From: Elusimicrobia bacterium HGW-Elusimicrobia-2
Lineage (GTDB): Bacteria; CG03
Direction of reading: 5' to 3'
NCBI GenBank assembly: GCA_002841685.1
Contig: PHAM01000048.1
Span: 1 to 18,429 of the forward strand
DNA length: 18,429 bases
The notes under the pieces are model-generated. The model saw only the letters and a list, made by a program, of their open reading frames with translations, was not told the DNA's origin and did no database searches. Shown piece by piece: positions 1,972-18,429 of the stretch. How positions within the stretch are numbered: the first letter of the stretch is position 1; each line of letters starts with the position of its first letter. Made by a program: the position numbers and the translations under genes.

Positions 1972-3891
1972 ATGGCCGGCACTACCCCCGTCATGGGGCA
2001 GTATGAAAAAATAAAGAGAAGTTATCCCGACTGCATAATATTTTTCAGGCTCGGGGATTTTTACGAGATGTTCGGTGAAGACGCCCGCGAGGCGTCAAAG
2101 ATACTGCAGATAGTCCTCACATCCCGCGGCGGCCGTCCCATGTGCGGTATCCCGTATCACGCCGCGGACAATTACCTTCTCAAAATCATATCAGCCGGCA
2201 GAAAGGTCGCCATTGTGGAGCAGCTCGAAGAAGCGTCAAAAGGCGGAAAAATAGTGGACAGGGGCGTGGTGAGAGTCGTCACTCCCGGCACACTCACGGA
2301 GGAGGTGCTTTCGCCTGCGGTGAATAATTTTATCCTCGCAGTTTCCCCGCAAAAAGAATTTTTCGGATGCGTTCTGGCGGATATCAGCACCGGCGAGATG
2401 CTAGCGCGCAAGGTGAGGGAAAAAGATCTCCCCGGTTTTCTCAAAAGCGTGGACAGGATAACGGAAGTCGTCTATCCCGAGGGCACGGGCCTGGAAAAAT
2501 ATTTCGCGCCGTGCGTTTTCCGCTCGCCGATGGATAAGAGTTTTTTCAGCGAGTACGAGGGAAGGGAGAAACTCAAGGATCTTTTTAAGGTCAAGTCGCT
2601 GGCCGGCTTTGATATGGAGGAAGGGATACTGCTTTCCGCCGCCGCGGCTCTTTTAAGTTATCTGGCCGGGACAAAACTTGATATTTTATCGTCAATAAAA
2701 AGTATTTCAAGGATACGGCGGGGGGATAACCTCTTCATGGATGAGTCCACCATACGCAACCTTGAACTGGTTGAGGATCTTACGAGCTCATCCTCCGGAG
2801 CCACGCTTTTCGGCGCTCTGAACAGGACTTTCACAAGCGCCGGCGCCAGGCTTCTGAAGAAAAGGATTCTCAGCCCTTCGCGGAGAGTGGAAGTCATCAG
2901 GCAGCGCCAGAAAGAGCTGGCGCTTTTTATGGATGACCCCGGCCTTAAAGACGCTGTGGGCGCGGCCCTCTCATCGGTCAAGGACAGCGAAAGGTCTTCC
3001 AGCCGCATAGCCATGACAGGCGGGCGGCTCGCGGGTTTCTTGAATATATTGAGCGCTTTGAAGGCCGCCCGGATCATCGAGAAAAAACTGAAGGGCGGTG
3101 TTTTCGGCGCTTTGAATTTCCTGCCGGGTTTGATGGAAACGCTGGATAAGGCGCTCGCGCGCGATGAGAACGGCCAGCCGGTCATAGACCCTTCCTTTGA
3201 CCCGCGGATGGAGCATTGCCGCGCGAAGCTCGCTATTCTGGAGAAATGGATAGGTGATTTTGAGGACGCCGAGCGCCGGAGGCTGGGAATACCCAAGCTC
3301 AAAGTTTCGTTCAACTCGGTTTTCGGCTATTACATCGATGTTACAAGGGTGAACCTGGGAAAAGTGCCGGAAAATTACATAAGAAAGCAGACGCTCGTCA
3401 ATTCGGAGCGCTTTATCACGCATGAGCTGAAAGAAAAGGAAACCGAAATACTGATGTTGAAAGAAGAGCTCGGCGGAATAGAAAAAGAGGCAAGGAAGGT
3501 CTTGTCGGACAGCGTCAGGCGGGAGCTCGGCGCGCTGAAAGAGCTTTCGACTAAGCTCGCCGGGATAGATGTGGCCAGGTCTTTCGCCGTAACCGCGGCC
3601 GCGGGGAATTATGTCATTCCCGAAGTCAATGACGGCGATGAGATCATCATAAAGGATTCGCGCCATCCCGTTGTTGAGAAAATCCACGCCGAAACTTTTA
3701 CGCCCAACGATATAAATCTTGACAGAAAAAACAATCAGGTCATGCTCATAACGGGGCCCAACATGGCGGGGAAATCAACCTATATCAGGCAGACGGCTCT
3801 TTGCGTTATAATGGCTCAGGCCGGCGGGGCAATTCCCGCCCAGAATCGGCGTTGCCGACAGGGTTTTCACAAGGATAGGCGCGGGAGATAA
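1972..3891 (+). CDS. mutS: DNA mismatch repair protein MutS, 5' part (frameshifted)
   Basis: MutS recognises mispaired and looped bases and recruits MutL. From ATG 1972 the mismatch-binding domain starts with TPVMGQYEKIK and carries the Phe-x-Glu wedge (F30-Y31-E32 in GDFYEMF). Connector, core and clamp domains follow, and the ATPase begins with Walker A GPNMAGKST (3754-3780). After A623 (codon 3838-3840, AGGAIPA) the frame is lost: 16 unrelated residues follow to the stop at 3889-3891. The expected sequence ARIGVADRVFTRIGAGDNLVQGAST is present from 3842 in the next frame. Family alignments have about three residues between IPA and RIG; only one base is left, so about 8 bp appear missing. The product as read would lack Walker B and the dimer interface. 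No Shine-Dalgarno sequence is obvious before the start. Confidence 0.9.
   Translation: MAGTTPVMGQYEKIKRSYPDCIIFFRLGDFYEMFGEDAREASKILQIVLTSRGGRPMCGIPYHAADNYLLKIISAGRKVAIVEQLEEASKGGKIVDRGVVRVVTPGTLTEEVLSPAVNNFILAVSPQKEFFGCVLADISTGEMLARKVREKDLPGFLKSVDRITEVVYPEGTGLEKYFAPCVFRSPMDKSFFSEYEGREKLKDLFKVKSLAGFDMEEGILLSAAAALLSYLAGTKLDILSSIKSISRIRRGDNLFMDESTIRNLELVEDLTSSSSGATLFGALNRTFTSAGARLLKKRILSPSRRVEVIRQRQKELALFMDDPGLKDAVGAALSSVKDSERSSSRIAMTGGRLAGFLNILSALKAARIIEKKLKGGVFGALNFLPGLMETLDKALARDENGQPVIDPSFDPRMEHCRAKLAILEKWIGDFEDAERRRLGIPKLKVSFNSVFGYYIDVTRVNLGKVPENYIRKQTLVNSERFITHELKEKETEILMLKEELGGIEKEARKVLSDSVRRELGALKELSTKLAGIDVARSFAVTAAAGNYVIPEVNDGDEIIIKDSRHPVVEKIHAETFTPNDINLDRKNNQVMLITGPNMAGKSTYIRQTALCVIMAQAGGAIPAQNRRCRQGFHKDRRGR
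3823..3840. repeat. GC hairpin at the mutS frameshift
   Basis: Perfect 6-bp stem ggcggg / cccgcc (3823-3828 with 3835-3840) with a 6-nt loop. Its 3' foot coincides exactly with the last in-frame codon before the mutS frameshift. Such hairpins favour slippage deletion in vivo and read errors in vitro. Confidence 0.5.
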
Positions 3892-3916: not shown

Positions 3917-4507
3917 ATGGTTGAGATGAACGAGGCGGCGAACATACTGAACAATTCAACGGAAAAATCGCTCATCATAATAGATGAGCTGGGCCGGGGC
4001 ACATCAACTTATGACGGAATATCCATAGCGTGGTCATGCCTTGAATACATAGCCGGCGATCCCCGCCATTGCCGCTGTCTTTTCGCCACCCATTTTTTTG
4101 AGCTGATAGAGCTGGAAGAAAAATTCCCCAACATAAAGAATTTCAACGCGGCGGTCAAAGAATGGCAGGGCAAACTCCACTTCCTCCACAAGATAGAGAA
4201 AGGCCCGGCGGACCGGTCTTATGGTATCCATGTGGCGGAACTGGCGGGAATCCCGCCTTCCGCGGTTGCCAGAGCCAGGGAAATAATGAAAGAGCTCGAG
4301 AACAAGCATATCAGAACGGATAAGACCTCGGCCGCTCCTCAGCTTTCTTTTTTTGACGATGGCAGATATGAAGGGATAATTAAAAAGATCAAAAACGCCG
4401 ATACGGATAATATGAAGCCCGTGGCGGCGCTGACTTTGCTGGATGAGATGAAAACTGAACTCGGCCTTCCGGAGAAAGACGGGCACGGCGGGAAGACGGA
4501 AAAATGA
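3917..4507 (+). pseudogene. mutS: MutS, 3' part (ATPase C-terminal half, other frame)
   Basis: Continuation of mutS in the shifted frame; MutS homology already begins at 3842 (RIGVADRVFTRIGAGDNL), and ATG 3917 is only the first internal Met. It contains the ABC signature region (STFMVEMNEAANIL), Walker B with the D-loop (LIIIDELGRGTSTYDG), the H-loop (ATHFFEL) and the helix-turn-helix dimerisation tail (YGIHVAELAGIPPSAVARAREIM). Joined to the 5' part the protein would be about 844 residues, normal for MutS. Translated alone from 3917 it lacks Walker A and cannot be a working ATPase. The sequence after the break is well conserved, so either the frameshift is very recent or it is a sequencing or assembly error. 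The stop overlaps the next ATG (ATGA, 4504-4507). Confidence 0.85.
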
Positions 4508-5595
4508 AAAAAAATAAAAAACTAACTGAAAAGCATCCTGTAAAAATAAAGAGTATTACAACGGCGGGGAACCTTGTTTCAGACATTCATAAAATGATAG
4601 GTGAAACACGTTCATCTGTTGCCGCTACAGTAAATATAGGCCTTACAATGCTTTACTGGAAAATAGGTAAACGGGTTAATGATGAAATCCTTGTAAATAA
4701 GAGAGCCGGTTATGGAGAGGAAATTCTTGCGACACTGTCGCAAGAATTGATTATTGAGCATGGGAGCAGTTTTTCTGAGAAGAATCTTAGGCGAATGGTT
4801 CAATTTTCCGAAGTTTTTTCAGATGAGAAGATTGTCGTATCACTGATACGACAATTGAGTTGGACGCATTTTATAGCGCTTATCCCTCTCAAAAAACCTC
4901 TTGAAAGAGAATTTTATGCTGAAATGTGCAGGGTTGAAAGGTGGAGTGTGAGGACTTTGCGGAAAAAGATAGATTCAATGCTGTTTGAGCGGACAGCTCT
5001 GTCTAAAAAGCCCGAAAAACTGGCGCGTATGGAACTTTCTAAATTGAGAGAAGAGGATAAACTTACGCCCGATCTTGTGTTCAGGGATCCGTATTTTCTG
5101 GATTTCTTAGGCCTTAAAGGAAGTTATCAGGAAAAAGATCTTGAATCTGCTATTCTGCGTGAAATAGAAGCTTTCATAATGGAATTGGGTGCGGGATTTT
5201 CATTTGTCGCCCGCCAGAAACGCATTACGATTGACAATGATGATTTTTATATTGACCTTCTATTTTATCACCGTAAACTGAAAAGTCTGGTTGTTATTGA
5301 TCTTAAACTGGGGAAATTCAAAGCGGCTTATAAAGGGCAGATGGAGCTTTATTTAAGATGGCTCGAAAAATATGAAACAGAACCCGGCGAGCAGCCGCCA
5401 TTGGGACTTATCCTCTGCGCGGAGGGGAATAACGGGCAAGTAGAGCTTTTGCAATTAGATAAATCCGGCATTCATGTTGCCGAGTATTTAACTGTGCTGC
5501 CGCCTAAAAAATTACTGCAAGAGAAACTGCACAAGGCAATTGGTTTGGCGAAACGGCAGATTGAGCAGAGGAATACGAATAAGGAAAAGAAATGA
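4504..5595 (+). CDS. DUF1016/YhcG-type PDDEXK nuclease family protein
   Basis: A 363-residue protein of the YhcG family: an N-terminal DUF1016_N helical domain (about 20-165) and a C-terminal PDDEXK nuclease domain (about 185-350). Visible family blocks are MLYWKIGKRV, the twin LATLSQEL / VVSLIRQLSW motifs, FRDPYFLDFLGL, and the nuclease core with D251 (FYIDLLFYH) and D266-x-K268 (VVIDLKLG), followed by the GQMELYLRW helix. These are the expected catalytic Asp...Asp-x-Lys residues, so the nuclease fold looks intact. The cellular role of the family is not settled; members are often found near restriction-modification and mobile DNA. The gene is clearly A+T-richer than mutS and the redox genes, suggesting acquisition, yet it is joined by ATGA overlaps on both sides (4504-4507 and 5592-5595). 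Two perfect palindromes lie inside it. Confidence 0.9.
   Translation: MKKNKKLTEKHPVKIKSITTAGNLVSDIHKMIGETRSSVAATVNIGLTMLYWKIGKRVNDEILVNKRAGYGEEILATLSQELIIEHGSSFSEKNLRRMVQFSEVFSDEKIVVSLIRQLSWTHFIALIPLKKPLEREFYAEMCRVERWSVRTLRKKIDSMLFERTALSKKPEKLARMELSKLREEDKLTPDLVFRDPYFLDFLGLKGSYQEKDLESAILREIEAFIMELGAGFSFVARQKRITIDNDDFYIDLLFYHRKLKSLVVIDLKLGKFKAAYKGQMELYLRWLEKYETEPGEQPPLGLILCAEGNNGQVELLQLDKSGIHVAEYLTVLPPKKLLQEKLHKAIGLAKRQIEQRNTNKEKK
4722..4748. repeat. 27-nt perfect palindrome within the nuclease gene
   Basis: Arms aattcttgcgaca (4722-4734) and tgtcgcaagaatt (4736-4748) are exact reverse complements around a single c at 4735. It encodes the first ATLSQEL motif of the DUF1016 domain. Confidence 0.75.
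4831..4855. repeat. 25-nt perfect palindrome within the nuclease gene
   Basis: Arms attgtcgtatca (4831-4842) and tgatacgacaat (4844-4855) are exact reverse complements around a single c at 4843. It encodes the second motif (IVVSLIRQL), the counterpart of the first palindrome's motif. Confidence 0.75.
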
Positions 5596-7460: not shown

Positions 7461-7488
7461 TGACTATTGACGGCTTTCAGTGTATTAT
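7460..7488 (+). promoter_or_regulatory. sigma70-type promoter
   Basis: TTGACT (7460-7465), a 17-nt spacer, then TATTAT (7483-7488): five of six matches at each hexamer and ideal spacing. It marks a new transcription unit starting after the TIM-barrel gene. The expected start point (about 7494-7498) is at or next to ATG 7498, so the mRNA would be leaderless or nearly so. Confidence 0.6.
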
Positions 7489-7497
7489 ATTAGTGCG

Positions 7498-8007
7498 ATG
7501 AAAAAGTTTTTATTTAGCTTCTGCGCGGCGTTTTCGCTGTGCGCCGTAGCCGTAAATCCGGCGCATGCGGATCTCACACCCGAACAGGTGAGAAAGATCT
7601 ATGCATCCAGCGTCTTTGAGGCGCGGGATACCTACAACAACAGCAGGCCTATGAGATTCGCTGAATCTTCGGCCATTAACGGATTTTTCTCGACGCTGTT
7701 TGCCGAAAAAGTGAATAAAGTATCATCCTTCAAAATGACTTTTCAGCCGACAATGAAAGGCTGGACGGCCCTGGTTTTTCAGGCCATTTACAGCAGGGAT
7801 TCGGGCCAGACTCTGCCGGCAAAACTCACGGCGCCCTATAAGATACTCGCCGCGAATGCCGTGTCCGCCATCCACGAACTGCGTTTTGACACGGCGTATC
7901 CCGTCAATACGGTTGCCGCCGGATTTATGTCGGCGCTGTTTTTGTTCGCTATTTCAATTTTACCTATACACAAAATAAAATTCAGGCTTTTTATTCAGAG
8001 AGAGTAA
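7498..8007 (+). CDS. secreted or membrane-anchored hypothetical protein
   Basis: A 169-residue protein I do not recognise. ATG 7498 gives a clean signal peptide (MKKFLFSFCAAFSLCAVAVNPAHA, probable cleavage AHA-D after residue 24); the in-frame ATG at 7480 would overlap the promoter and lengthen the n-region. The mature part opens with DLTPEQVRKIYASSVFEARDTYNNSR and has no cysteines or clear catalytic motif. It ends in a hydrophobic stretch (about 141-156, FMSALFLFAISILPIH) and a basic tail (KIKFRLFIQRE), so it may be anchored at the C-terminus. That tail might alternatively come from a late frameshift. No Shine-Dalgarno sequence precedes the start, consistent with the leaderless promoter layout. 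The 85-bp gap to the next gene holds only a weak 5-bp stem (8021-8025 with 8036-8040). Confidence 0.65.
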   Translation: MKKFLFSFCAAFSLCAVAVNPAHADLTPEQVRKIYASSVFEARDTYNNSRPMRFAESSAINGFFSTLFAEKVNKVSSFKMTFQPTMKGWTALVFQAIYSRDSGQTLPAKLTAPYKILAANAVSAIHELRFDTAYPVNTVAAGFMSALFLFAISILPIHKIKFRLFIQRE

Positions 8008-8092: not shown

Positions 8093-8830
8093 ATGAATAA
8101 ACATAAAGAAACAAATTGCCACGCGCGTAAGGCGCTGTTCGCCGACGGCAGCCGCTTTCTGCCCCTTGGCGCTCTGGCTGTCATTGCCGGCTTTTTGTGT
8201 TTCGCTCCGGCATTCGCAGAGGCGAGGTTTTTGTTTTTCGGCAAAGATAAAAGTCCGCGGGAGATTAAAGCGGATCAGGCGGTGAAAAAACTTAAGGGTT
8301 CAAATTCCGCCGAAAGAGGGCGGGCCGCGGATGAGCTGATGCAGATGGATAAAAAAAGAGGCGTTAGCGAAATTAAAACAGCCCTCAAAAAAGAGAAAGA
8401 CGATCAGGCGAAGAAAAATATGCTTAACGCTCTGGGGAATTCCGGCGATGCTGAAGCTATTCCGGATGTGAAAGAGCATCTGTCTTCAGGCGATAGGGGC
8501 GTGAGGCTTTATGCCGCCTGCGCCTTGGCCGCGCTCGGTGATGATTCGGGGCTGGGAGAACTTGAAACCGTTATTACGGATGCGGGCGAAAGCCGCGGCC
8601 GCAGGTCGTTTGCCATAAGGTCGCTGGGCGGAATAAAAACAGACGCGGCTGTCGCCGTTTTAGAGAATGTCCTGAAAGACGGCGATTTCGCCATACGGCT
8701 TCAGGCGGTGTCTTCTTTGGGGAAAATCGGCACATCAAGGGCGCTGAACACGGTTAAGGGGATGGCGGGCGACAAAGATGAGAGGGTGCGGGATGCCGCG
8801 GGAAATATTCTGATGAGGACGGAAAAATGA
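8093..8830 (+). CDS. secreted HEAT-repeat protein
   Basis: A 245-residue exported protein. A long basic n-region and hydrophobic core lead to a likely signal peptidase site after AFA (residue 42). A charged linker follows, then about five HEAT/PBS-lyase-like helical repeats (about 65-245). Recurrent repeat units are ALKKEKDDQAKKNMLNALGN, VRLYAACALAALGD, SRGRRSFAIRSLGG, AIRLQAVSSLGKIG and VRDAAGNILM. HEAT solenoids are protein-binding scaffolds; no enzymatic residues are expected. It directly precedes the giant Ig-like gene and overlaps it by ATGA (8827-8830), so a role in assembly, export or anchoring of that protein is a reasonable guess, not shown. The start is uncertain: TATAAT at 8087-8092 abuts ATG 8093, and no ribosome-binding site is seen. 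Confidence 0.82.
   Translation: MNKHKETNCHARKALFADGSRFLPLGALAVIAGFLCFAPAFAEARFLFFGKDKSPREIKADQAVKKLKGSNSAERGRAADELMQMDKKRGVSEIKTALKKEKDDQAKKNMLNALGNSGDAEAIPDVKEHLSSGDRGVRLYAACALAALGDDSGLGELETVITDAGESRGRRSFAIRSLGGIKTDAAVAVLENVLKDGDFAIRLQAVSSLGKIGTSRALNTVKGMAGDKDERVRDAAGNILMRTEK
8815..8818 (+). promoter_or_regulatory. ribosome binding site of the giant gene
   Basis: GAGG lies 8 nt before ATG 8827, inside the end of the HEAT gene. Together with the ATGA overlap it fixes the start of the giant reading frame. Confidence 0.55.
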
Positions 8831-11800
8831 TTTCCGGAAATATTAGGAAATTTAGAAAATCACTTTCCACCGTCCCCTTTTTGTTCGGAAAACCCGTAGT
8901 TGCCTCCGCTTTTCTTCTTGTTTTTATGGCCGTGAGGGTATTCGCCATTGCCACTTTTTATTTTAAGGACGCCGCGGCTCCCAGTGACGCACCTTCAACC
9001 ATTTACTGTACGGATCCTGAATCCGGCTACACTTATGCTGCTTACGGCACAAATGTCAGGACAATGGGAACCAACCCGGGAGGCGCGGAATTAACATGGA
9101 CGCATACTGCGTTTGGGGCCGGTACCGGAGCTAATAATATTAACTTTGGAGGTGATATTTTTGTTTCTCCGGCGCTCAAAGCTCAGACGCTGAATTCGGG
9201 AACATGGTCGGCTCAGTTCAGGATGTATGCCAACGGTGACAAAGACAATGACGATTACGCGAGAATATGTGTTTATGTGTGGAGAAATAATTCTGTGGCG
9301 GCGGTGATTGTGTCCTCTTACACACAGACGACAACACATATTGTCGGCACGGTTTTGAAAACAATAAGTTTCACAGGGCGACCCGGAGCGGCCTGCAGTA
9401 TACTGGATAACGATTATCTTGTCGTTGAGGTCCTCGCCAGAACCATGACTAACGCTCCTGCCAACTCGGCGCCGGATTATATTTATGTAGGCAGAGATAC
9501 GACAGACAGTTATCTCACCGCTCCGCAGGATCTGCAGATTTTTACAGCGCCGAATCTTACGTCCGTTACTCCGGATGTAAAGGGTCAGGGCTGTTCATTG
9601 GAACAGATTAACTTTACGGGAACTGATCTTCAAAGTGACGATATTCTATCTTTTATGAGGGTGGATGTGGCCGAAATAGATACAATAGGGCAATCTGCGA
9701 AAACAATATGGACGACCAGCGGCACAGTTAAAATATCAATTCCGGATACCGTGGAAACAAGCGCCGCCGGCGGAAGTGTTGTTCTGAGAATCGCCAGACT
9801 TTCCAATACAAATCTTTTCAGCGAAAAAGCTTTTACAATAAGTTCTTATCCTCTTTCGGCCGTGACCAGTCCGGCGGATTCTTCTTTGAAAAACTCCGTT
9901 GCTTCTATAGGGGGTACGGCTAATGCCCGGGGCGGGACGATAGCTAATATCTGGATAGCCATAGAAAAGATAATGGCGGGAGATAACGAATTCTGGGATG
10001 GTTCGCAGTGGACAACCACTCCGGGGGCCAATCAGTGGCTGGCCGTCACGCCGGATACTTCATGGTCATATGATTCGTCCGGCGTGACATGGGATTCTGC
10101 TAATTCTCTTTATCAGCTTAAATCAAAAGCCAAAAATTCATACGGCGGCATTGAAAGCGTGGGGAGCGGCATACAGTTCCGTTTTGATGGACAGCCGCCT
10201 GTCGTCACTTCAACCGTGCCGGTCAACAATCTCTATTCGGCACAAGCCTTCAATTTTTCGGGAACTTCTTCGGACAATTCCTCGTCCTATGGTTATGGTG
10301 TTAAAACCTCAGGCGGCATTACCATGAGAATTTACGCTGTCAATGTTTCCAAATACTGGCATGGTGATGTCAATCAATGGGTAGAAGGCGAATACTGGTG
10401 CGTTGCGACGGGCTCTACCTCGTGGAATTATTCAATTGCCACGTCTTCGTGGAACGAAAACCAGCATTATCAGACAATCGTCAGAGCCGAGGATCAGGGG
10501 GGTAATTTTTCAACAGTGTGGTCAACGCGGAATTTCACATATGACATTTATGCCGCTTCTCCCGAAAAACCGGATTCCAGAGTGACGGATCCGGTAGATG
10601 GGGAATACCGCGGTTCCCAATGGATAGAGAATACGGGTATCTCCGGTACGGCCTCTGACAACACCCGTGGCGGCCTTGACATAGGCAATGACTGGGGGAT
10701 ACAGTACGCCATACGCAGGCAGAGCGACGGTTTTTGGTACGATATAGGTATTCCCGGATTCAAAGACAACAGCGGCAATCCTTTCTGGAATGCCGTAAAC
10801 GCGGTAAATATGGCGGAAACTTCAGCAACCGACTGGAGTGAGACTCTCACGGCTGATTGGGTGCGGACTCTTTCCGCGACGGAGTTTGATGACGGGGTAT
10901 CGTATGATGTTATAAGCAGATGCCGCGATATAACGGTCAGCGCATACGGAGGCCCGAATTACGAGATAGTTTATGAGACTTCTACATTCATTATGGATAA
11001 GGGCGTGCCGAGCTCTGCTATTTTGTCGCCTGTACTGTCACATTATCAGGATGTGAATACGATATCGGGGACGGCCGCGGACACTTTGTCCGATGTTAAG
11101 GAAACGGGCGGGGTTAATATAAGGGTTAGTTATACTAATGGAACAAGCACATATTACCTATTGCCCACTAACCTCTGGGACAGCGTTCCGAATGTTTCGC
11201 ACTGGCTTGTTTGCTCGGGTTCGCATACATGGTCATATAATTCTGCCGCGGTAGCCTGGACTGATACGGTTGATTATAAAGTTGAGGTTAGAGCGGAAGA
11301 TAAAGCGCAGAACAAACAGACAACTTTTCCGAATAACACATTTATGTGCGATGTGTCAGCGCCGGCTTCCGCTTTGACCAATCCGCAGACAGGGCAGCTG
11401 TACCGAAGGGGTTTCCCGACTTTGATTCAGGGCACTGCGGTCGACGTGTCCTCAACGGTCGCGAAAGTTTATCTTAAAATAAAAGAAAACTCGGCTGATA
11501 TTTATTGGTCGGATAATTTAAATACATGGGTGGGTTATTCAACAATTTGCGCCTGCTCGTACTCCGCGCCTAATTGGACATATGATTCAGACGCCAAAGG
11601 GGTGGGTTGGGTGAACGGAACAGAATACAGCCTGATACCTTATGCGAGGGATTTCCCGGGGAACGCGGGCGACGGAACATCACGGAATTTTACATGGGAT
11701 GTGAAAATTCCCACATCAGCGGTGACAACGCCCGCTAACGCGTCTTTTTTGAACAGCTTACTGACAATTGTGGGCACGGGCGCCGATTCCACGGGTCTTA

Positions 11801-14800
11801 TAAATAAGGTATATGTGGGCATCAAGGATACGGTGAATTTGAAATGGTGGGATGGAACTTTGGTTCAGTGGGGCGCCGAGGAGTGGAACACAGCATGGGC
11901 CGGCTCCGAACCGGCGCCGATTTGGGATTATGATATGCCTCATTCAACGGCTTACTGGACAAATAACCACAAATACATCATTTACACGAAAGCTGTTGAT
12001 GAATCTGTCAAAAATATCAGCGGCCAATGGGTGGGGAACACCGAAGACGCGCTGAACAACGGCACCAGTTCATATTTTACGTTTGACGGAAGCGCGCCCG
12101 AATCAAAAATAGACAATGTGACGGACAGTTCCTATATAAAAAGCCTTACTGATATAACGGGGACGGCTCTTGATTTGAACGGACAGTTGACGCCGGCTGG
12201 CTCCATAGGGCAGATCAGCAGTGTTAAGATACATATTTATGATGCTAACGCAGGGGAATACTGGGGGGGAGCCCTGGGCTGGCAGACGGGCGGCCTCGTT
12301 CCTTCCGACGCACAATACAGAACAGTTTCTTATACGGCTTATCATGCCGGCGGTTCTTCGGGAACATTTGTTTATAATTCCGGTGTTGAAAGTTTTCCTT
12401 CATGGACCCCGGGAAACCAATATAGACTTATAACCAAGGCGCAAGACGGCGCTTCCAACAAGGAAGTGACAGTTTCCACGGTATCGTTTTATTACGACGT
12501 TTATGTAGTCGGCCCGCCTGAATATCCCGATTCTTCTATCACATATCCGGCGAATAACTGGAATACCAAAACAACGACGACGACTATCAGCGGTTCAGCC
12601 GCTGACAATGTTGCGCTGAACTGGGTTTATGTTAAAATAATGCGTTTAACGCAGGCGGGAGCGACCGATTACTGGCAGGGCGCCACATGGGCGGGAACAG
12701 AAAAATGGCTCAACTATAATCAGGGAACTTTAAGCTCATGGGGAAGAACAGTTCCTTCGGATTCTTCTTTTTGGACAGAAAACCGTCTCTATAAAATTAT
12801 TTCAAGAGCTGAGGACAAGGCGCTGAACTGGGAAATTAATTTCACAACTATAACGGTTGTTTATGACTTGCTCATTCCGACCGCTGCTGTGACATATCCC
12901 GCAAACAGCGGTTATGTTTCGTCGGTCGGGAAAATAACTGGGACTTCGGAGGATTCGTGGCCCGGGCAGACGGGGAATGTCTATCTGAAATTGCAGAGGC
13001 AGGATAATTCCAAATACTGGAAGGGTTCGTCTTCCTGGACGGCGGTGGAGACATGGCTTGCCCCAACTTTGTCCAGCGGCGGAACTTGGTGGCAATTGAC
13101 TGACAATCCGTCATGGGAAACGACGAATTATGAGGCTTATGCTAAGTGCAAAGACAAAGCGGATAACTGGCAGACTGTTTATTCCACCGTTGCATTTATA
13201 GGTGATTTCACGGCGCCGTCTTCAACTGTTACAACGCCAGCCAACGGTTCCTCGCAGGATTCTGTCGCAGTGATTTCGGGCGCGGCCTCCGACGAAAATG
13301 AACTTGATTATGTGAAAATTGACATAAAAAGAAATACGGACAATTTCAGGTGGGACGAAGACAATGAGCAATGGGTGGATACATCAAACACTCCTTTCTG
13401 GCTTGATTGCGCCGGATCGGGCGGCTGGTCGTTTACCATTACTTATCAGACTTCATGCTGGTCAAACGGCCTTTCCTATACGATAACCCCGAAAGCCTTT
13501 GACAAGGCGGGGAACTCTTCGGTGGGGACAGCCTCAATATTTAATTTTGTCTATCCCGCACAGAATCCTTTCAAGGTGTCGTATCCCTCTGTGATGACGG
13601 CCGGAGTAGCCGGAAATTTTACGGTGACCGCATGGAATTATGATTACAGCGCCACCGCCACAGGCTACGGGGGAGATGTTTTCTTTGATTCTTCCGATAA
13701 TTACATGCTTGTTGACGGGAATGCTCACGACGGCTATTCTTACACGTATGTTCCAGGCGGCGGCGGAGACAATGGTGAACACATATTTTCCGTTACAATG
13801 AAAACCGCAGGTACAAATCTCTGGTGGAAAGTTTGGGATCCGGACACATACGGATATGTTATTTCCTCACAGGTTGTTATAAACAAAGTTAATCCCGGCG
13901 CTCTCAAATATTTCCAGGTGACCGTTAACAAGACCGGCGACCCGAATGATCCCGCCGGCGTGACGGCGGGCGTGCTGAGGAGCGTCACCGTCAGCGCCTA
14001 TGACGCGCAGAAAGATTACAATGATGCATCCCGTACGGGCGGCAATCCTAAGACGAATTATAACGGAATTGTTCATTTCACTTCTTCCGACGGAAACGCT
14101 TCCATCCCCGCGGATTATCAGTTTACTTCGGGTTCGGGAGAAGATAACGGCGTCCACACATGGTTGGTCGGCTCATCAACGGGCGTTAAGTTTAAAACAA
14201 TGAATCTGAACGGCGCGTGGCTGAGGACAAACGATACGGATCTGACAACTTCAACGGGAGCGGCCGCGGGAATTATTGTTTATCCTAATTCTTACGCTTC
14301 GGGAAGTTTTGTCGTGTCTGCAGCCACGGGGCCCTGGACGGCCGGCGTGGGAAGAGCCACAATGACCGTGGAATCTGTTGACGCTTACGGCAACAGGTGC
14401 TCAAGCGGAGTGTATAATTACAACGGCACGGCAAAATTCACATCTTCCGACGGAAATGTTTATTTTGGGAACACAAAATCAACGACTGTTTACACATTCA
14501 CAACCGGCGCTTCGGGCGACAACGGATACCATGTGTTTAACGCCACCGCGCAGTTTAGAACAAGCGGGACACAGTGGATAAAAGCAAAGGACGAAAGTAA
14601 CACCCAGGAGGGTTTGAAAACGGGTATTGTTGTTTACCCCGGCGCAGCGACGCATTTTGCCGTAACAGCGTCCACGAATGTTACGGCAGGAGCTTCTTTT
14701 GATGTTACGGTTGAGGCCCTTGACCAGTTTAACAACAGAGACACAAACTATTATTCCGCCGACTCCGAATTTGATTTCAGCGCTCTCAACAGCGACAACA

Positions 14801-17800
14801 GCCCAATGAGCAATTCTTCTTTTATTCTTGACCCCACGACTTTTGAAGCCGGCTGGAACGGTTACCATCCGTTCGGAAGCCAGGCGACACTTAATGCCGC
14901 CGCAGGGACAGGCAAGAAAATTAAGGTGACGGATACCGGAAAATCAATTACGGGCGAGCGGCAAAGCATAAAACTCAATCCGGCGTCGGCCTGGTCGCTT
15001 GAGGTTTTTGTTGATAACCTCGGCGACGCGGGCGCGGCGGTTACGCTTGTCGCGGGCGGGTGGTACAATATGAAAGTCCGCGCGAAGGATTTTTACGGGA
15101 ACGTTGATACAAATTATGCGCAGCAGATAAAATTTACCTCACCCAATTCGTCAAGCTATCTTTTTGACACCGACGGTTCCGCGGGTGCACCGTATATTGA
15201 CACTTACACTTTTGTGGGCGGCGACCTCGGTTCTAAGGTTTTTTCCGCCGCGGTCTGTCTGAAGCAGACGGGTGTTAATAAAATTGTAAAGGCCTCATCC
15301 ACGATTTCGGGCGTTTACGGCCAGAAAGTCAATAACACGGTTAGTGCCGCTACACTTAATTCTTTTGCCGTAAGCGGCGTTGAAAATCCCCATTCAAAGG
15401 GGCATAATCAAAGCTGGACGGTTGCGGCTGTTGACCTTTATGGAAATACCGTTACGAATTATTCAGGAACGGTCAATTTTGAGTCAGGAGCTTCCGCCTA
15501 TACATTTCTACCGGCAAATTATAAATTTGTGACTTCCGGGGGCAGTCCCGATAACGGAATTCACACTTTTGAAGTGAGCGCTTCCACGTATCTTGTTTTT
15601 AATTCAACGGGACTTTTATATATCAAAGCGATTGATTATTCCGCTGGCAAAGAGGGCAAGCAGGAGAATATAAGAGTCGTGGGTTTACCTCTAAGCGCCG
15701 TGACTGTGCCCTCTTCGGCAGTTAACTATTGGTCAAATGTGCCGGGGCTCCAGGGTACGGCAGCTGTCCAGCATTCGGCAGCGACGCTCGCGAAAATCGA
15801 GATAAATATAAAAAACATTGACGATGTTAAATGGTGGGACGGGTCAGACTGGAATGCGGGCTCGGTGAACTGGATAGAAGTTTTCGGCGATCCATGGACA
15901 TATGCCGGCGTTCCGCAGGTCAGCTGGGAAGACCCGAAAGAATTTAAAATTGAGAGCAGGAGCTATGATAATTTATTCGGCACACAAACCGCTGTTGGTT
16001 CGGTTCAGTTTTATGTTGACAAAACTGAACCTGGTTCAAATATAACAACACCAGGCTGGGATGACAGGAAAAACGCGCTGGATAATATAATAGGGGCATG
16101 TTGGGATACGGGTTCCGGCGTGGATATCGTGAAAATAAAAATATCGTCGGGGGCTTACACATGGACGGGTTCGTCGTGGTCGGTTAATATCCACTGGATT
16201 GAGGCCGCGGGAACAGGAGGTTCTCCGCCGACGGGCTGGAACTATGGCGCTTTTGCGGACGGCGTGAACTGGTCTGACGGCGTTGAATACAATATAGATT
16301 CAAAAGCTTGGGATTTATCGTCGCCCGCGAAAGAACAATCCACTGCATTCAACACAAAATTCACTTATGATGTAACTCCGCCCACCACTACTGTTTCAAA
16401 TCCCGCTGACGGCAGCGGAAGAAACGCTCTGAATGAAATATCGGGCAAAGCCGGGGATAAAAACGGGGTATCGGCGATTTCAGATGTTTATATATGTATA
16501 AGAAAAGCCGGGCCGACTTACTGGGACAGAGACGGCGGCACAGGATGGGGCGGGGCCATAATATGGAATGAGTGTTCAGGAACAGATAACTGGACGCTTA
16601 ATTCGTCAACGGTCACCTTGACGGACGGTTTGGAATACAAACTTTATGTGAAAGCCACCGATGCCGCCGGCAATCAGACAAACATAGTGGACGGTGATAT
16701 AACAAGCGGCGTAAATTATAACAGCAGATTTTATTATGACACACAGGACCCGAATGCAAAAATAACTTACCCTGAAGATGCGGGAAAATATAATAATGTT
16801 GCCGCTCTTTACGGTACTGCCGCGGACAATAACACAACGGCGCCGGGAAGAGAAATTGATTATTTAAAAATAAACGTGTATGACACAACAGAAAGCAAAA
16901 CATGGGACGGCGGGCCCGCCGCGGGCGGTGACGGCTGGGATGCGGGTGAATATGATGACGCTGCCCATTGGAGAACTGTTTCTTATACGGCTTATCAGGC
17001 AGCCGGTTCCTCGGGGACATGGGGCTATCCTTACGGCATAGGTGATTCAACGCCGACGTGGACGGATCCGCGCGCTTACAGGGTTAGGATAAGAGTTTAT
17101 GATAAGGCGGGCAATTATGTTTCGTATGTTGATACAATAACTTTTACTTATGACACATATGCGGCATCGCCGGAGCGGCCGGATTCATTGGCTAATTCAA
17201 TTTCAAACGGCGATCATCTAAATGACACATTTTCGTCAATAAGCGGCACAGCTGTGGACGATATACTTTTGGATGATATAGATCCGGTGAACATAAAGAT
17301 ATGGCGCGCGGACACATCTCAATTCTGGGGCGGGGCTTCATGGGGGAGTGATATATGGCTTTCCGCATCCGGCGGCGTTTCATGGTCGAGAGCGATACCA
17401 CCGGATCCGGCGAACGCATTTTGGGTTGAGAATTCTTCTTACGGGATAATCACAAGGGCAAAAGATAAGGCGGGGAATTATGAGAGAGTGTTTTCTACGG
17501 TATCTTTTATTTATGATATTGAAACTCCTGATTCTTTGACAACCTACCCTGCCGTTTCGCCGAATGATTATATAGCATCCTCCGCCGCTGTCAAGGGAAC
17601 ATGCTATGACACGCTGCAGGGAATCACAGATAAGGTTTATGCGAGACTTGCCAGAAACAGCGATAACAAATATTGGAAAGTGACGGCCTCTTCCTGGTCG
17701 GCGGCTGAATACTGGAATGAATCATGGCTTTCTCCGGGAGTGACGTCATGGGTTTTAACAGCGCCGACTGGTGACTGGAATGAAAGTGTTTCTCTTTACA

Positions 17801-18429
17801 GTTTGAACCCGCGCGCTAAAGATAAGGCGGGGAACTGGGAAAGCCCTTTTTCAACAAAAACATTCCAGGCGGATTTTACTGACCCGAATTCGTTTATAAC
17901 GGAGCCGGTTTTTGACGATTACGACACTCTTCCCGCGATAAAAGGAACGACATATGAGGCGAAAACAATAAACAAGATTAAAATAGACATAAGAAGAACA
18001 GATAATAACTGGAGATGGAATAACGCCTCTTCAACATGGACGGCTACAAATCCTTATTGGAACGAAATAAGCGGAGCGTCATCATGGCAGTTCGACATAA
18101 GTTTCCCGACGAGGTGCTGGCAGAGCGGCAAAAGCTACGAGGTTACAGCGCATGCTGTTGACGGAGCGCAGAACGAGGAATCGGATGACGCGGATAATAA
18201 AAAATCATTCAACTTCAGGAAGGCGCCGGTGACATTTCAGCTCGGCGGTATTCCGTCAAATCCCGTCGCGGGCACCGAATATACGGTGACGGGAACAGCA
18301 TTTGATGAGGATCTTACCGTCGCGTCAGCGTATAAACAGTTTGTGGAATTTGAGTGTTCAAACCCGGCCTACACAGTTTTGCCGTCGTCATATCAGTTTA
18401 CGACAAATGACGCCGGCGTTCACGAGTTC
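8827..18429 (+). CDS. giant exported multi-domain Ig-like surface protein (3' end outside window)
   Basis: I translated every codon from ATG 8827 to the window end: 3,201 codons without a stop, so the gene continues beyond. Domains by residue: signal peptide 1-40 (core about 26-40, site near VFA); beta-rich N-terminal domain of unknown name about 44-240 (FYFKDAAAPS...); IPT/TIG-like domain about 242-339 (PNLTSVTP..., INFTGTDL); type A modules A1-A10 at 341-1582; type B modules B1-B6 at 1583-2288; A11-A17 at 2289-3134; B7 from 3135. Type A consensus: P.S.vt.Pan, isGtA.D, YW.G..W, W.y, Y.i..rA.DkagN, F.YD. Type B: AG..f.VtV.A.D.ygN, FtSsDg.a.iPa.Y.Ft, GvHtF. Trp, Thr, Ser and Asn are abundant and Cys is rare. 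Such chains are typical of extracellular stalks or adhesins; the cell-wall, beta-barrel or type 9-like anchor must lie downstream. No enzymatic domain was seen. Confidence 0.92.
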   Translation, partial: MISGNIRKFRKSLSTVPFLFGKPVVASAFLLVFMAVRVFAIATFYFKDAAAPSDAPSTIYCTDPESGYTYAAYGTNVRTMGTNPGGAELTWTHTAFGAGTGANNINFGGDIFVSPALKAQTLNSGTWSAQFRMYANGDKDNDDYARICVYVWRNNSVAAVIVSSYTQTTTHIVGTVLKTISFTGRPGAACSILDNDYLVVEVLARTMTNAPANSAPDYIYVGRDTTDSYLTAPQDLQIFTAPNLTSVTPDVKGQGCSLEQINFTGTDLQSDDILSFMRVDVAEIDTIGQSAKTIWTTSGTVKISIPDTVETSAAGGSVVLRIARLSNTNLFSEKAFTISSYPLSAVTSPADSSLKNSVASIGGTANARGGTIANIWIAIEKIMAGDNEFWDGSQWTTTPGANQWLAVTPDTSWSYDSSGVTWDSANSLYQLKSKAKNSYGGIESVGSGIQFRFDGQPPVVTSTVPVNNLYSAQAFNFSGTSSDNSSSYGYGVKTSGGITMRIYAVNVSKYWHGDVNQWVEGEYWCVATGSTSWNYSIATSSWNENQHYQTIVRAEDQGGNFSTVWSTRNFTYDIYAASPEKPDSRVTDPVDGEYRGSQWIENTGISGTASDNTRGGLDIGNDWGIQYAIRRQSDGFWYDIGIPGFKDNSGNPFWNAVNAVNMAETSATDWSETLTADWVRTLSATEFDDGVSYDVISRCRDITVSAYGGPNYEIVYETSTFIMDKGVPSSAILSPVLSHYQDVNTISGTAADTLSDVKETGGVNIRVSYTNGTSTYYLLPTNLWDSVPNVSHWLVCSGSHTWSYNSAAVAWTDTVDYKVEVRAEDKAQNKQTTFPNNTFMCDVSAPASALTNPQTGQLYRRGFPTLIQGTAVDVSSTVAKVYLKIKENSADIYWSDNLNTWVGYSTICACSYSAPNWTYDSDAKGVGWVNGTEYSLIPYARDFPGNAGDGTSRNFTWDVKIPTSAVTTPANASFLNSLLTIVGTGADSTGLINKVYVGIKDTVNLKWWDGTLVQWGAEEWNTAWAGSEPAPIWDYDMPHSTAYWTNNHKYIIYTKAVDESVKNISGQWVGNTEDALNNGTSSYFTFDGSAPESKIDNVTDSSYIKSLTDITGTALDLNGQLTPAGSIGQISSVKIHIYDANAGEYWGGALGWQTGGLVPSDAQYRTVSYTAYHAGGSSGTFVYNSGVESFPSWTPGNQYRLITKAQDGASNKEVTVSTVSFYYDVYVVGPPEYPDSSITYPANNWNTKTTTTTISGSAADNVALNWVYVKIMRLTQAGATDYWQGATWAGTEKWLNYNQGTLSSWGRTVPSDSSFWTENRLYKIISRAEDKALNWEINFTTITVVYDLLIPTAAVTYPANSGYVSSVGKITGTSEDSWPGQTGNVYLKLQRQDNSKYWKGSSSWTAVETWLAPTLSSGGTWWQLTDNPSWETTNYEAYAKCKDKADNWQTVYSTVAFIGDFTAPSSTVTTPANGSSQDSVAVISGAASDENELDYVKIDIKRNTDNFRWDEDNEQWVDTSNTPFWLDCAGSGGWSFTITYQTSCWSNGLSYTITPKAFDKAGNSSVGTASIFNFVYPAQNPFKVSYPSVMTAGVAGNFTVTAWNYDYSATATGYGGDVFFDSSDNYMLVDGNAHDGYSYTYVPGGGGDNGEHIFSVTMKTAGTNLWWKVWDPDTYGYVISSQVVINKVNPGALKYFQVTVNKTGDPNDPAGVTAGVLRSVTVSAYDAQKDYNDASRTGGNPKTNYNGIVHFTSSDGNASIPADYQFTSGSGEDNGVHTWLVGSSTGVKFKTMNLNGAWLRTNDTDLTTSTGAAAGIIVYPNSYASGSFVVSAATGPWTAGVGRATMTVESVDAYGNRCSSGVYNYNGTAKFTSSDGNVYFGNTKSTTVYTFTTGASGDNGYHVFNATAQFRTSGTQWIKAKDESNTQEGLKTGIVVYPGAATHFAVTASTNVTAGASFDVTVEALDQFNNRDTNYYSADSEFDFSALNSDNSPMSNSSFILDPTTFEAGWNGYHPFGSQATLNAAAGTGKKIKVTDTGKSITGERQSIKLNPASAWSLEVFVDNLGDAGAAVTLVAGGWYNMKVRAKDFYGNVDTNYAQQIKFTSPNSSSYLFDTDGSAGAPYIDTYTFVGGDLGSKVFSAAVCLKQTGVNKIVKASSTISGVYGQKVNNTVSAATLNSFAVSGVENPHSKGHNQSWTVAAVDLYGNTVTNYSGTVNFESGASAYTFLPANYKFVTSGGSPDNGIHTFEVSASTYLVFNSTGLLYIKAIDYSAGKEGKQENIRVVGLPLSAVTVPSSAVNYWSNVPGLQGTAAVQHSAATLAKIEINIKNIDDVKWWDGSDWNAGSVNWIEVFGDPWTYAGVPQVSWEDPKEFKIESRSYDNLFGTQTAVGSVQFYVDKTEPGSNITTPGWDDRKNALDNIIGACWDTGSGVDIVKIKISSGAYTWTGSSWSVNIHWIEAAGTGGSPPTGWNYGAFADGVNWSDGVEYNIDSKAWDLSSPAKEQSTAFNTKFTYDVTPPTTTVSNPADGSGRNALNEISGKAGDKNGVSAISDVYICIRKAGPTYWDRDGGTGWGGAIIWNECSGTDNWTLNSSTVTLTDGLEYKLYVKATDAAGNQTNIVDGDITSGVNYNSRFYYDTQDPNAKITYPEDAGKYNNVAALYGTAADNNTTAPGREIDYLKINVYDTTESKTWDGGPAAGGDGWDAGEYDDAAHWRTVSYTAYQAAGSSGTWGYPYGIGDSTPTWTDPRAYRVRIRVYDKAGNYVSYVDTITFTYDTYAASPERPDSLANSISNGDHLNDTFSSISGTAVDDILLDDIDPVNIKIWRADTSQFWGGASWGSDIWLSASGGVSWSRAIPPDPANAFWVENSSYGIITRAKDKAGNYERVFSTVSFIYDIETPDSLTTYPAVSPNDYIASSAAVKGTCYDTLQGITDKVYARLARNSDNKYWKVTASSWSAAEYWNESWLSPGVTSWVLTAPTGDWNESVSLYSLNPRAKDKAGNWESPFSTKTFQADFTDPNSFITEPVFDDYDTLPAIKGTTYEAKTINKIKIDIRRTDNNWRWNNASSTWTATNPYWNEISGASSWQFDISFPTRCWQSGKSYEVTAHAVDGAQNEESDDADNKKSFNFRKAPVTFQLGGIPSNPVAGTEYTVTGTAFDEDLTVASAYKQFVEFECSNPAYTVLPSSYQFTTNDAGVHEF
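9847..13572 (+). repeat. type A Ig-like module array A1-A10
   Basis: Ten modules of roughly 110-145 residues start near 9847, 10201, 10573, 11011, 11365, 11713, 12100, 12529, 12880 and 13219. Each opens after a P..P boundary with a strand ending in a GTA.D-like turn and closes with a YD..aP-like strand. They are strongly diverged from each other at the DNA level. Confidence 0.8.
11011..15690 (+). repeat. higher-order repeat, unit 1 (A4-A10 + B1-B6)
   Basis: First copy of a 13-module super-unit of about 4.68 kb. Offsets to the matching modules of unit 2 are 4680, 4668, 4671, 4653, 4653, 4650 and 4668 nt (A4-A10) and 4656 nt (B1 to B7), which is close to constant. Confidence 0.7.
13573..15690 (+). 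repeat. type B module array B1-B6
   Basis: Six modules start near 13573, 13906, 14293, 14641, 14986 and 15355. Recurrent features are tAG..f.VtV.A.D.ygN, Y.GtV.FtSsDg, and dnGvHtF. B2 (14077-14163) and B6 (15463-15572) show the pattern best. These resemble the invasin/filamentous-type Ig-like modules common in bacterial surface proteins. Confidence 0.78.
15691..18228 (+). repeat. type A Ig-like module array A11-A17
   Basis: Seven modules start near 15691, 16033, 16384, 16753, 17182, 17530 and 17887, followed by a type B module (B7) at 18229. Each pairs individually with A4-A10 of the first array (A11 with A4 by position only). Confidence 0.8.
15691..18429 (+). repeat. higher-order repeat, unit 2 (A11-A17 + B7..., truncated)
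   Basis: Second copy, cut by the window end inside its first B module. If complete it should run to about 20.3-20.4 kb in window coordinates with five more B modules. Confidence 0.65.

Follow-up and report, generated by a model that had tools for sequence, protein, structure and literature searches.

A 13-module super-repeat of two Ig-like domain types in a giant, probably exported protein of an Elusimicrobia bacterium

Giant Ig-like surface proteins are already known, and the locus described here raises the question as to whether such a chain can be ordered at a level above that of its single domains. The window, i.e., the whole of contig C88 (18,429 nucleotides) of a draft genome of 1.78 Mb in 94 contigs, ends inside a giant open reading frame (ORF) made of two kinds of module, types A and B. 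An earlier note on this DNA had proposed that a block of seven A and six B modules was duplicated as a whole and then diverged. A higher-order duplication with a period of 13 modules (seven A and six B) exists in this protein and again elsewhere in the gene; where the copied unit begins, how large the gene is and how the array may have grown are considered below.

Module layout and gene neighbourhood

HMMs for the A and B module types were built from hand-cut seeds, iterated and then used to segment the protein. This segmentation gives the order ten A, six B, seven A and a cut B (Table 1), the A10 run spanning residues 344-1583, the B6 block 1576-2285 and the A7 run 2290-3136. The A modules are mutually about 30% identical and have many motifs in common. 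Neither Pfam nor NCBIfam assigned the A or the B modules to a family with confidence, the Pfam family Big_3_2 (PF12245) reaching 13.5 bits, under its curated cut-off of 23.3.

The HEAT-repeat gene that precedes the giant ORF is a conserved neighbour, being found beside it in relatives as well (70% identity in genome G008; 34% over 123 aa in G009). A 175-aa gene at 7480-8007 was rejected as a second conserved neighbour, its similarity to relatives being not significant (E 0.14). Further upstream, MutS is encoded in two ORFs in different frames (1972-3891 and 3917-4507) with domain V divided between both; a real frameshift and a sequencing error are both possible. A YhcG/DUF1016 gene (PDDEXK nuclease family; 4504-5595) lies between MutS and an Fe-S protein gene.

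Table 1. Features of the giant ORF and its upstream neighbour; positions are those of the window.
Feature	Position	Strand	Remark
HEAT-repeat protein gene	8093..8830	+	overlaps giant ORF start (ATGA)
Giant ORF, N-terminal part of the giant protein	8827..18429	+	3201 aa; open at contig end
Probable export signal, hydrophobic N-terminal segment	8827..8946	+	read by eye
N-terminal region without confident family match	8947..9855	+	27% identity to same region in G008
A1-A3, outside the repeated unit	9856..11016	+	81-92% aa identity to G008 orthologue
A4-A6, put in the unit by the earlier note	11014..12105	+	no pairing to A11-A13
A7-A10, first copy of paired A modules	12103..13575	+	partners A14-A17
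B1-B6, six-module B block (block alpha)	13552..15681	+	nearest in-genome block: first B block of C42, 44% identity
A11-A13, complete the 13-module period	15694..16758	+	orthologous to G008, G009, G010 modules
A14-A17, second copy of paired A modules	16756..18234	+	partners A7-A10
B7, first 71 residues of second B block	18217..18429	+	cut by contig end

The super-repeat in the window and along the gene

When the 17 A modules are compared all-against-all by global alignment, the A1-A10 by A11-A17 score table has a mean of 82, true pairs included. Four pairs stand far above this mean and are all reciprocal best partners, namely A7/A14 (score 198, 40% identity), A8/A15 (197, 37%), A9/A16 (208, 43%) and A10/A17 (176, 34%); the motifs by which the earlier note had matched them are real. 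It had counted seven one-to-one A pairs, of which the other three, A4/A11 (74), A5/A12 (89) and A6/A13 (87), lie at background with no reciprocal best match. Averaging over orthologues (two of the first A run, four of the second) gives these three 86, 81 and 108, versus 172-212 for the other four, and the A6/A13 similarity is at best a weak hint. With the window sequence alone, the seven-pair sum ranks second among 5040 permutations; with orthologue averages it ranks first, a signal driven by the four pairs.

With no period assumed, the best diagonal lies at offset 13 and joins modules 7-10 with 20-23 (score 9.6); the maximum in 300 module shuffles is 5.6, and none of the 300 reaches the observed value. 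The 13-module super-repeat proposed for this protein is thus real; its boundaries were misplaced, as the diagonal begins at A7, three modules after the claimed A4, and a block consisting of A4-A10 and B1-B6 throughout finds no support with A4-A6 at background. The spacing itself had been read correctly: on the module boundaries of the segmentation, start offsets put at 4650-4680 nt measure 4680, 4668, 4671, 4653, 4653, 4650 and 4668 for A4 to A10 and 4665 nt for B1/B7, and about 1,555 residues is correct as a period. Since the diagonal starts at A7, the copied unit would be A7-A10, B1-B6 and A11-A13. On the B side, B1 against B7 scores 13, B7 being 71 residues only; B7 has its best matches mostly among B modules in first position, and orthologous genes of the same layout go on with a full six-B set after the second A run. 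In the window pair, the part shared at offset 13 comprises four A modules only, to which six B modules are added by homology.

The diagonal is longer on contig C42 of the same genome (40,204 b), a single frame open from end to end (13,401 residues) that very probably carries the giant gene on from C88 and has the module order B6, A15, B6, A7, B6, A58, B15. Here, offset 13 spans modules 18-33 (AAAABBBBBBAAAAAA) with a score of 33.5 versus a shuffle maximum of 8.4 and per-module identities of 26-53%. The last four A modules of the A15 run pair with the last four of the next A7 run (176, 166, 272, 214), the six B modules align in register (rank 2 of 720), and six further A modules, on the far side of the B block, are paired as well (168, 150, 117, 119, 177, 211). 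The continuous off-diagonal that the earlier note had named as its own test is best seen in these 16 consecutive modules, single B modules in mid-run being weak (40, 69, 87), so that "continuous" is to be read as positive throughout, not strong throughout. The same diagonal occurs again in contig C141 of genome G001 (30.1 versus a null maximum of 8.2). The A58 run of C42 (L003/L013) has a second period, with offset 10 across modules 53-76 and offset 20 too (range 53-82), and offset 10 is found as well in the A43 run of contig C2 of genome G007; together with the offset-13 zones, this means that the gene has zones of different period.

As to the total size of the gene, the last 69 nt of C42 are the first 69 nt of C74, exactly and in frame, and the joined ORF runs for 17,225 aa to a stop, with the C-terminus on C74. 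C88 and C42 have no exact end overlap; their B modules are 71% identical across the 31 residues in common, which points to different B modules and to material missing between the two contigs. We nevertheless regard C88 and C42 as probable parts of one gene because, in the relative G009, one ORF of 12,755 aa takes in the N-terminus together with the majority of zones (two A7-B6 units, A15-B6, A38, B16). Together, C88, C42 and C74 amount to 20,426 residues (2.21 MDa, 3.4% of the bin), the gap between C88 and C42 excluded; if the pieces are one gene, the protein has at least about 20,000 aa and is among the larger bacterial proteins.

Conservation in relatives and proposed growth of the array

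Homologous giant ORFs are present in six other genomes of the phylum (G001, G003, G007, G008, G009 and G010); the giant-protein query matched nothing in several relatives, among them one of the same genus, and a scan of the named genome collection with the B block returned no homologue. The A10-B6-A7-B layout is common to G008, which belongs to another family: A1-A10 of C88 match all ten modules of its contig C79, and A11-A17 match the second run of G008, G009 and G010 at seven of seven positions. Per module, A11-A17 are nearer to these orthologues (40-62% identity) than to their in-protein copy (30-43%), and the duplication thus predates the family-level split. Every internal B block that was found complete consists of exactly six modules, and seven A modules between B6 blocks recur in several units and several genomes. 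Module layout and 13-module offset are in this way conserved across genomes.

The duplication was not a single event, as B6 blocks occur at least four times in the genome and units differ among relatives by loss, gain and hybridisation. The B blocks give a less clear picture than the A runs: that of C88 is nearly equidistant from the first block of C42 (44% identity) and from the blocks of other genomes (39-42%). Compared with the first block of C42, its modules 2 and 3 stand at 58 and 63%, which suggests later exchange. In the second A7 run of contig C124 of G001, A1-A5 are like the A7 run of C42 (162-307) and A6-A7 like A16-A17 of C88 (259, 318), which gives this unit the appearance of a hybrid between two super-units. 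In G009, the A15 run is followed by a delta-like B block and the gamma block is absent, as if one unit had been lost. Hybrid and lost units are read from draft metagenome bins, of which G001 holds contigs identical to G003; the B blocks of its contig C141 (L069/L070) are 100% identical to those of G003 (L081, L082), and the bin seems to mix two populations.

Conservation is uneven along the chain. Modules A1-A3 share 81-92% identity with G008, versus 27% in the preceding 340 residues and mostly 34-70% in later modules. At identical residues, their third-base identity (0.52-0.66) falls inside the range of other regions or only slightly above it. This suggests strong constraint on A1-A3 and, the value being so little raised, disfavours a recent horizontal transfer; the segment may be a binding head. 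In the giant ORF of G007 contig C5 (L075), the N-terminal 2400 residues are a long IPT/TIG array ahead of the A modules.

Taken together, we regard it as probable that an exported giant Ig-like protein, putatively a surface adhesin or coat, grew in part when a block of 13 modules was duplicated in tandem and in frame, with later recombination. In the phase of the diagonal, the block would comprise four A, six B and three A modules, its period being seven A and six B; the copies would have diverged to roughly 30-45% identity with the register kept, and units would later have been lost, gained and hybridised in relatives, most simply by recombination at equivalent positions of different units. 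Duplication plus unequal recombination is the mechanism that we infer.

The best-placed alternative, which we nonetheless consider unlikely, is that only a 10-module block (four A and six B) was copied in the window, A11-A13 being acquired separately and the 13-module spacing being partly coincidental. It would account for the absence of pairing between A4-A6 and A11-A13, and in relatives whose next A run is available, the first three A modules past block beta do not pair with the A11-A13 orthologues either, scoring 58, 79 and 89 in G009 (r2/r3) and 69, 47 and 46 in G008 (C79 r2/C144 r2). However, offset 13 on C42 spans both sides of a B block and runs of seven A modules between B6 blocks recur in units and genomes, from which 13 is taken to be a real period of the gene. 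That the array consists of ordinary Ig-like repeats, their pairing due to chance or to selection on position with no block duplication, is hardly tenable: motifs shared by so many A modules could mislead a choice made by eye, and three of the seven claimed pairs fail, but module-order shuffles in seven ORFs never reach the observed diagonals, B blocks stand in register between units (ranks 1 and 2 of 720, the two best pairs), and runs of 4-16 consecutive modules are not readily explained by positional selection alone. Still less credible is an apparent super-repeat arising from a chimeric or duplicated contig: the draft is indeed fragmented and its contigs end inside repeats, but the copies, at 34-43% identity, are far too different for an assembler duplication and the same order is found independently in G008, G009 and G010. 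In-frame duplication of a 13-module block thus remains the preferred reading.

Predicted function and comparison with known giant proteins

When a single module of either type is modelled with AlphaFold, in each case from a shallow alignment of window modules, the result is an Ig-like β-sandwich (pLDDT 83.6 for A and 81.2 for B). The A model is similar to sulfite oxidase in its Ig-like domain (Z 11.9), to CopC and to SiiE (Z 8.4, rmsd 2.3 over 88); the B model is similar to the adhesin InvE (Z 8.3, rmsd 2.7 over 100) and to GH2 enzymes, again in their Ig-like domains (Z 9.4). The adhesin match of B is equalled or exceeded by GH2 and further Ig-like domains, and such matches speak for fold, not function; as the Foldseek matches all have E > 0.001, no more than a general Ig-like fold is read from them. 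A sequence search of the PDB with an A module matched SiiE (E=0.005), and with a B module it returned nothing useful. Three Asp residues are kept in 91, 97 and 96% of the A modules of the genome (87/96, 94/97 and 90/94; n=97), one of them sitting in the linker as in SiiE, whose type I calcium site is formed by three Asp at a two-domain interface, one from the preceding domain (PMC5466336). By its position, the triad is a candidate inter-domain calcium site; calcium predicted there would stiffen the chain, which the B blocks of six would divide into segments.

The protein is probably exported by a type IX-like system, a prediction made because the C-terminus on C74 resembles a T9SS sorting tail (type A sorting domain TIGR04183, partial match, 21.4 bits with a cut-off of 23). 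In the genome, the PorV family exceeds its cut-off many times, SprA-like collinear segments on C93 and a PorU-like segment on C18 stay below curated cut-offs, and a search for SprA_N gave no match, its control search being uninformative. PorV-family genes (C5, C14, C22, C31, C57, C66, C77, C78) often adjoin genes with FlgD_ig/T9SS-like C-terminal domains. A long, exported, calcium-stiffened surface adhesin or coat protein is the most likely putative function. By analogy with titin, one may also imagine a bacterial molecular ruler, in which the fixed 7A+6B period would determine the distances within a regular surface structure or between bound partners. Each internal block has six B modules, several units have seven A, and the period is kept despite sequence divergence, in contrast to the variable counts in the remaining zones (A7/A10/A14; A38/A58; 16 to about 25 modules in B arrays). 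Modules so diverged would, however, rarely recombine singly, so that their count could freeze without selection, and with two A15 runs and hybrid units the A count is not absolute; we regard the ruler as very unlikely.

Among bacterial adhesins, SiiE of Salmonella belongs with LapF and BapA to the giant BIg-domain adhesins (PMC5466336). It is likewise a long Ig-like chain, which A modules match by weak sequence similarity, predicted fold and Asp triad position; SiiE has 53 domains, all of a single kind, and is secreted by a T1SS, whereas the giant protein has two domain kinds in super-repeats, about four times the size and a T9SS-like tail. The ice-binding adhesin MpAFP is comparable in its region II, a giant extender of Ig-like domains of about 100 residues that is calcium-dependent in MpAFP, but consists of about 120 identical 104-residue copies with no higher order (PMC4083281), whereas the modules described here are each distinct. 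Giant ORFs have been reported in Omnitrophota (PMC10066038) and in Elusimicrobiota and other phyla (PMC11573180), with proposed roles in adhesion, coats and predation, Elusimicrobiota being noted as rich in huge proteins (PMC11573180). The present gene resembles them as a very large single ORF from an uncultured bacterium. Such ORFs are usually portrayed as long, poorly conserved arrays of unannotated sequence, with few domains assigned; in the present gene the architecture is legible and consists of two types of Ig-like bead, a super-repeat of 13 modules, another of 10 modules elsewhere and a layout conserved between families of an uncultured phylum. In a literature search of incomplete coverage, no bacterial surface protein with a super-repeat of two domain types came to light, and this organisation would set the gene apart from the giant Ig-like surface proteins already known. 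The gene offers a test case for gene growth by block duplication and in-register exchange, with the conserved A1-A3 segment and the predicted calcium-stiffened rod as concrete targets.

Domain arrays commonly grow by several domains at once, often in mid-array, as in the units of seven of nebulin (PMC1553488); such duplication has been studied mainly in eukaryotes, and the unit described here is larger and holds two domain types. The standard example of a mixed-domain super-repeat is the A-band of titin, with seven domains in the D-zone and 11 in the C-zone, attributed to recursive duplication (PMC10665226). As in titin, two bead types form a fixed multi-domain pattern that appears block-copied, and domains one period apart are more alike than neighbours, in consecutive runs of 4 modules on C88 and 16 on C42. 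By comparison, titin is a muscle protein of Ig and FnIII domains whose period matches the thick filament; no matching partner is known for the giant protein, its copies are fewer and more diverged, and there is no evidence of common ancestry. The super-repeat resembles that of titin in organisation, not in ancestry, and is an independent bacterial parallel.
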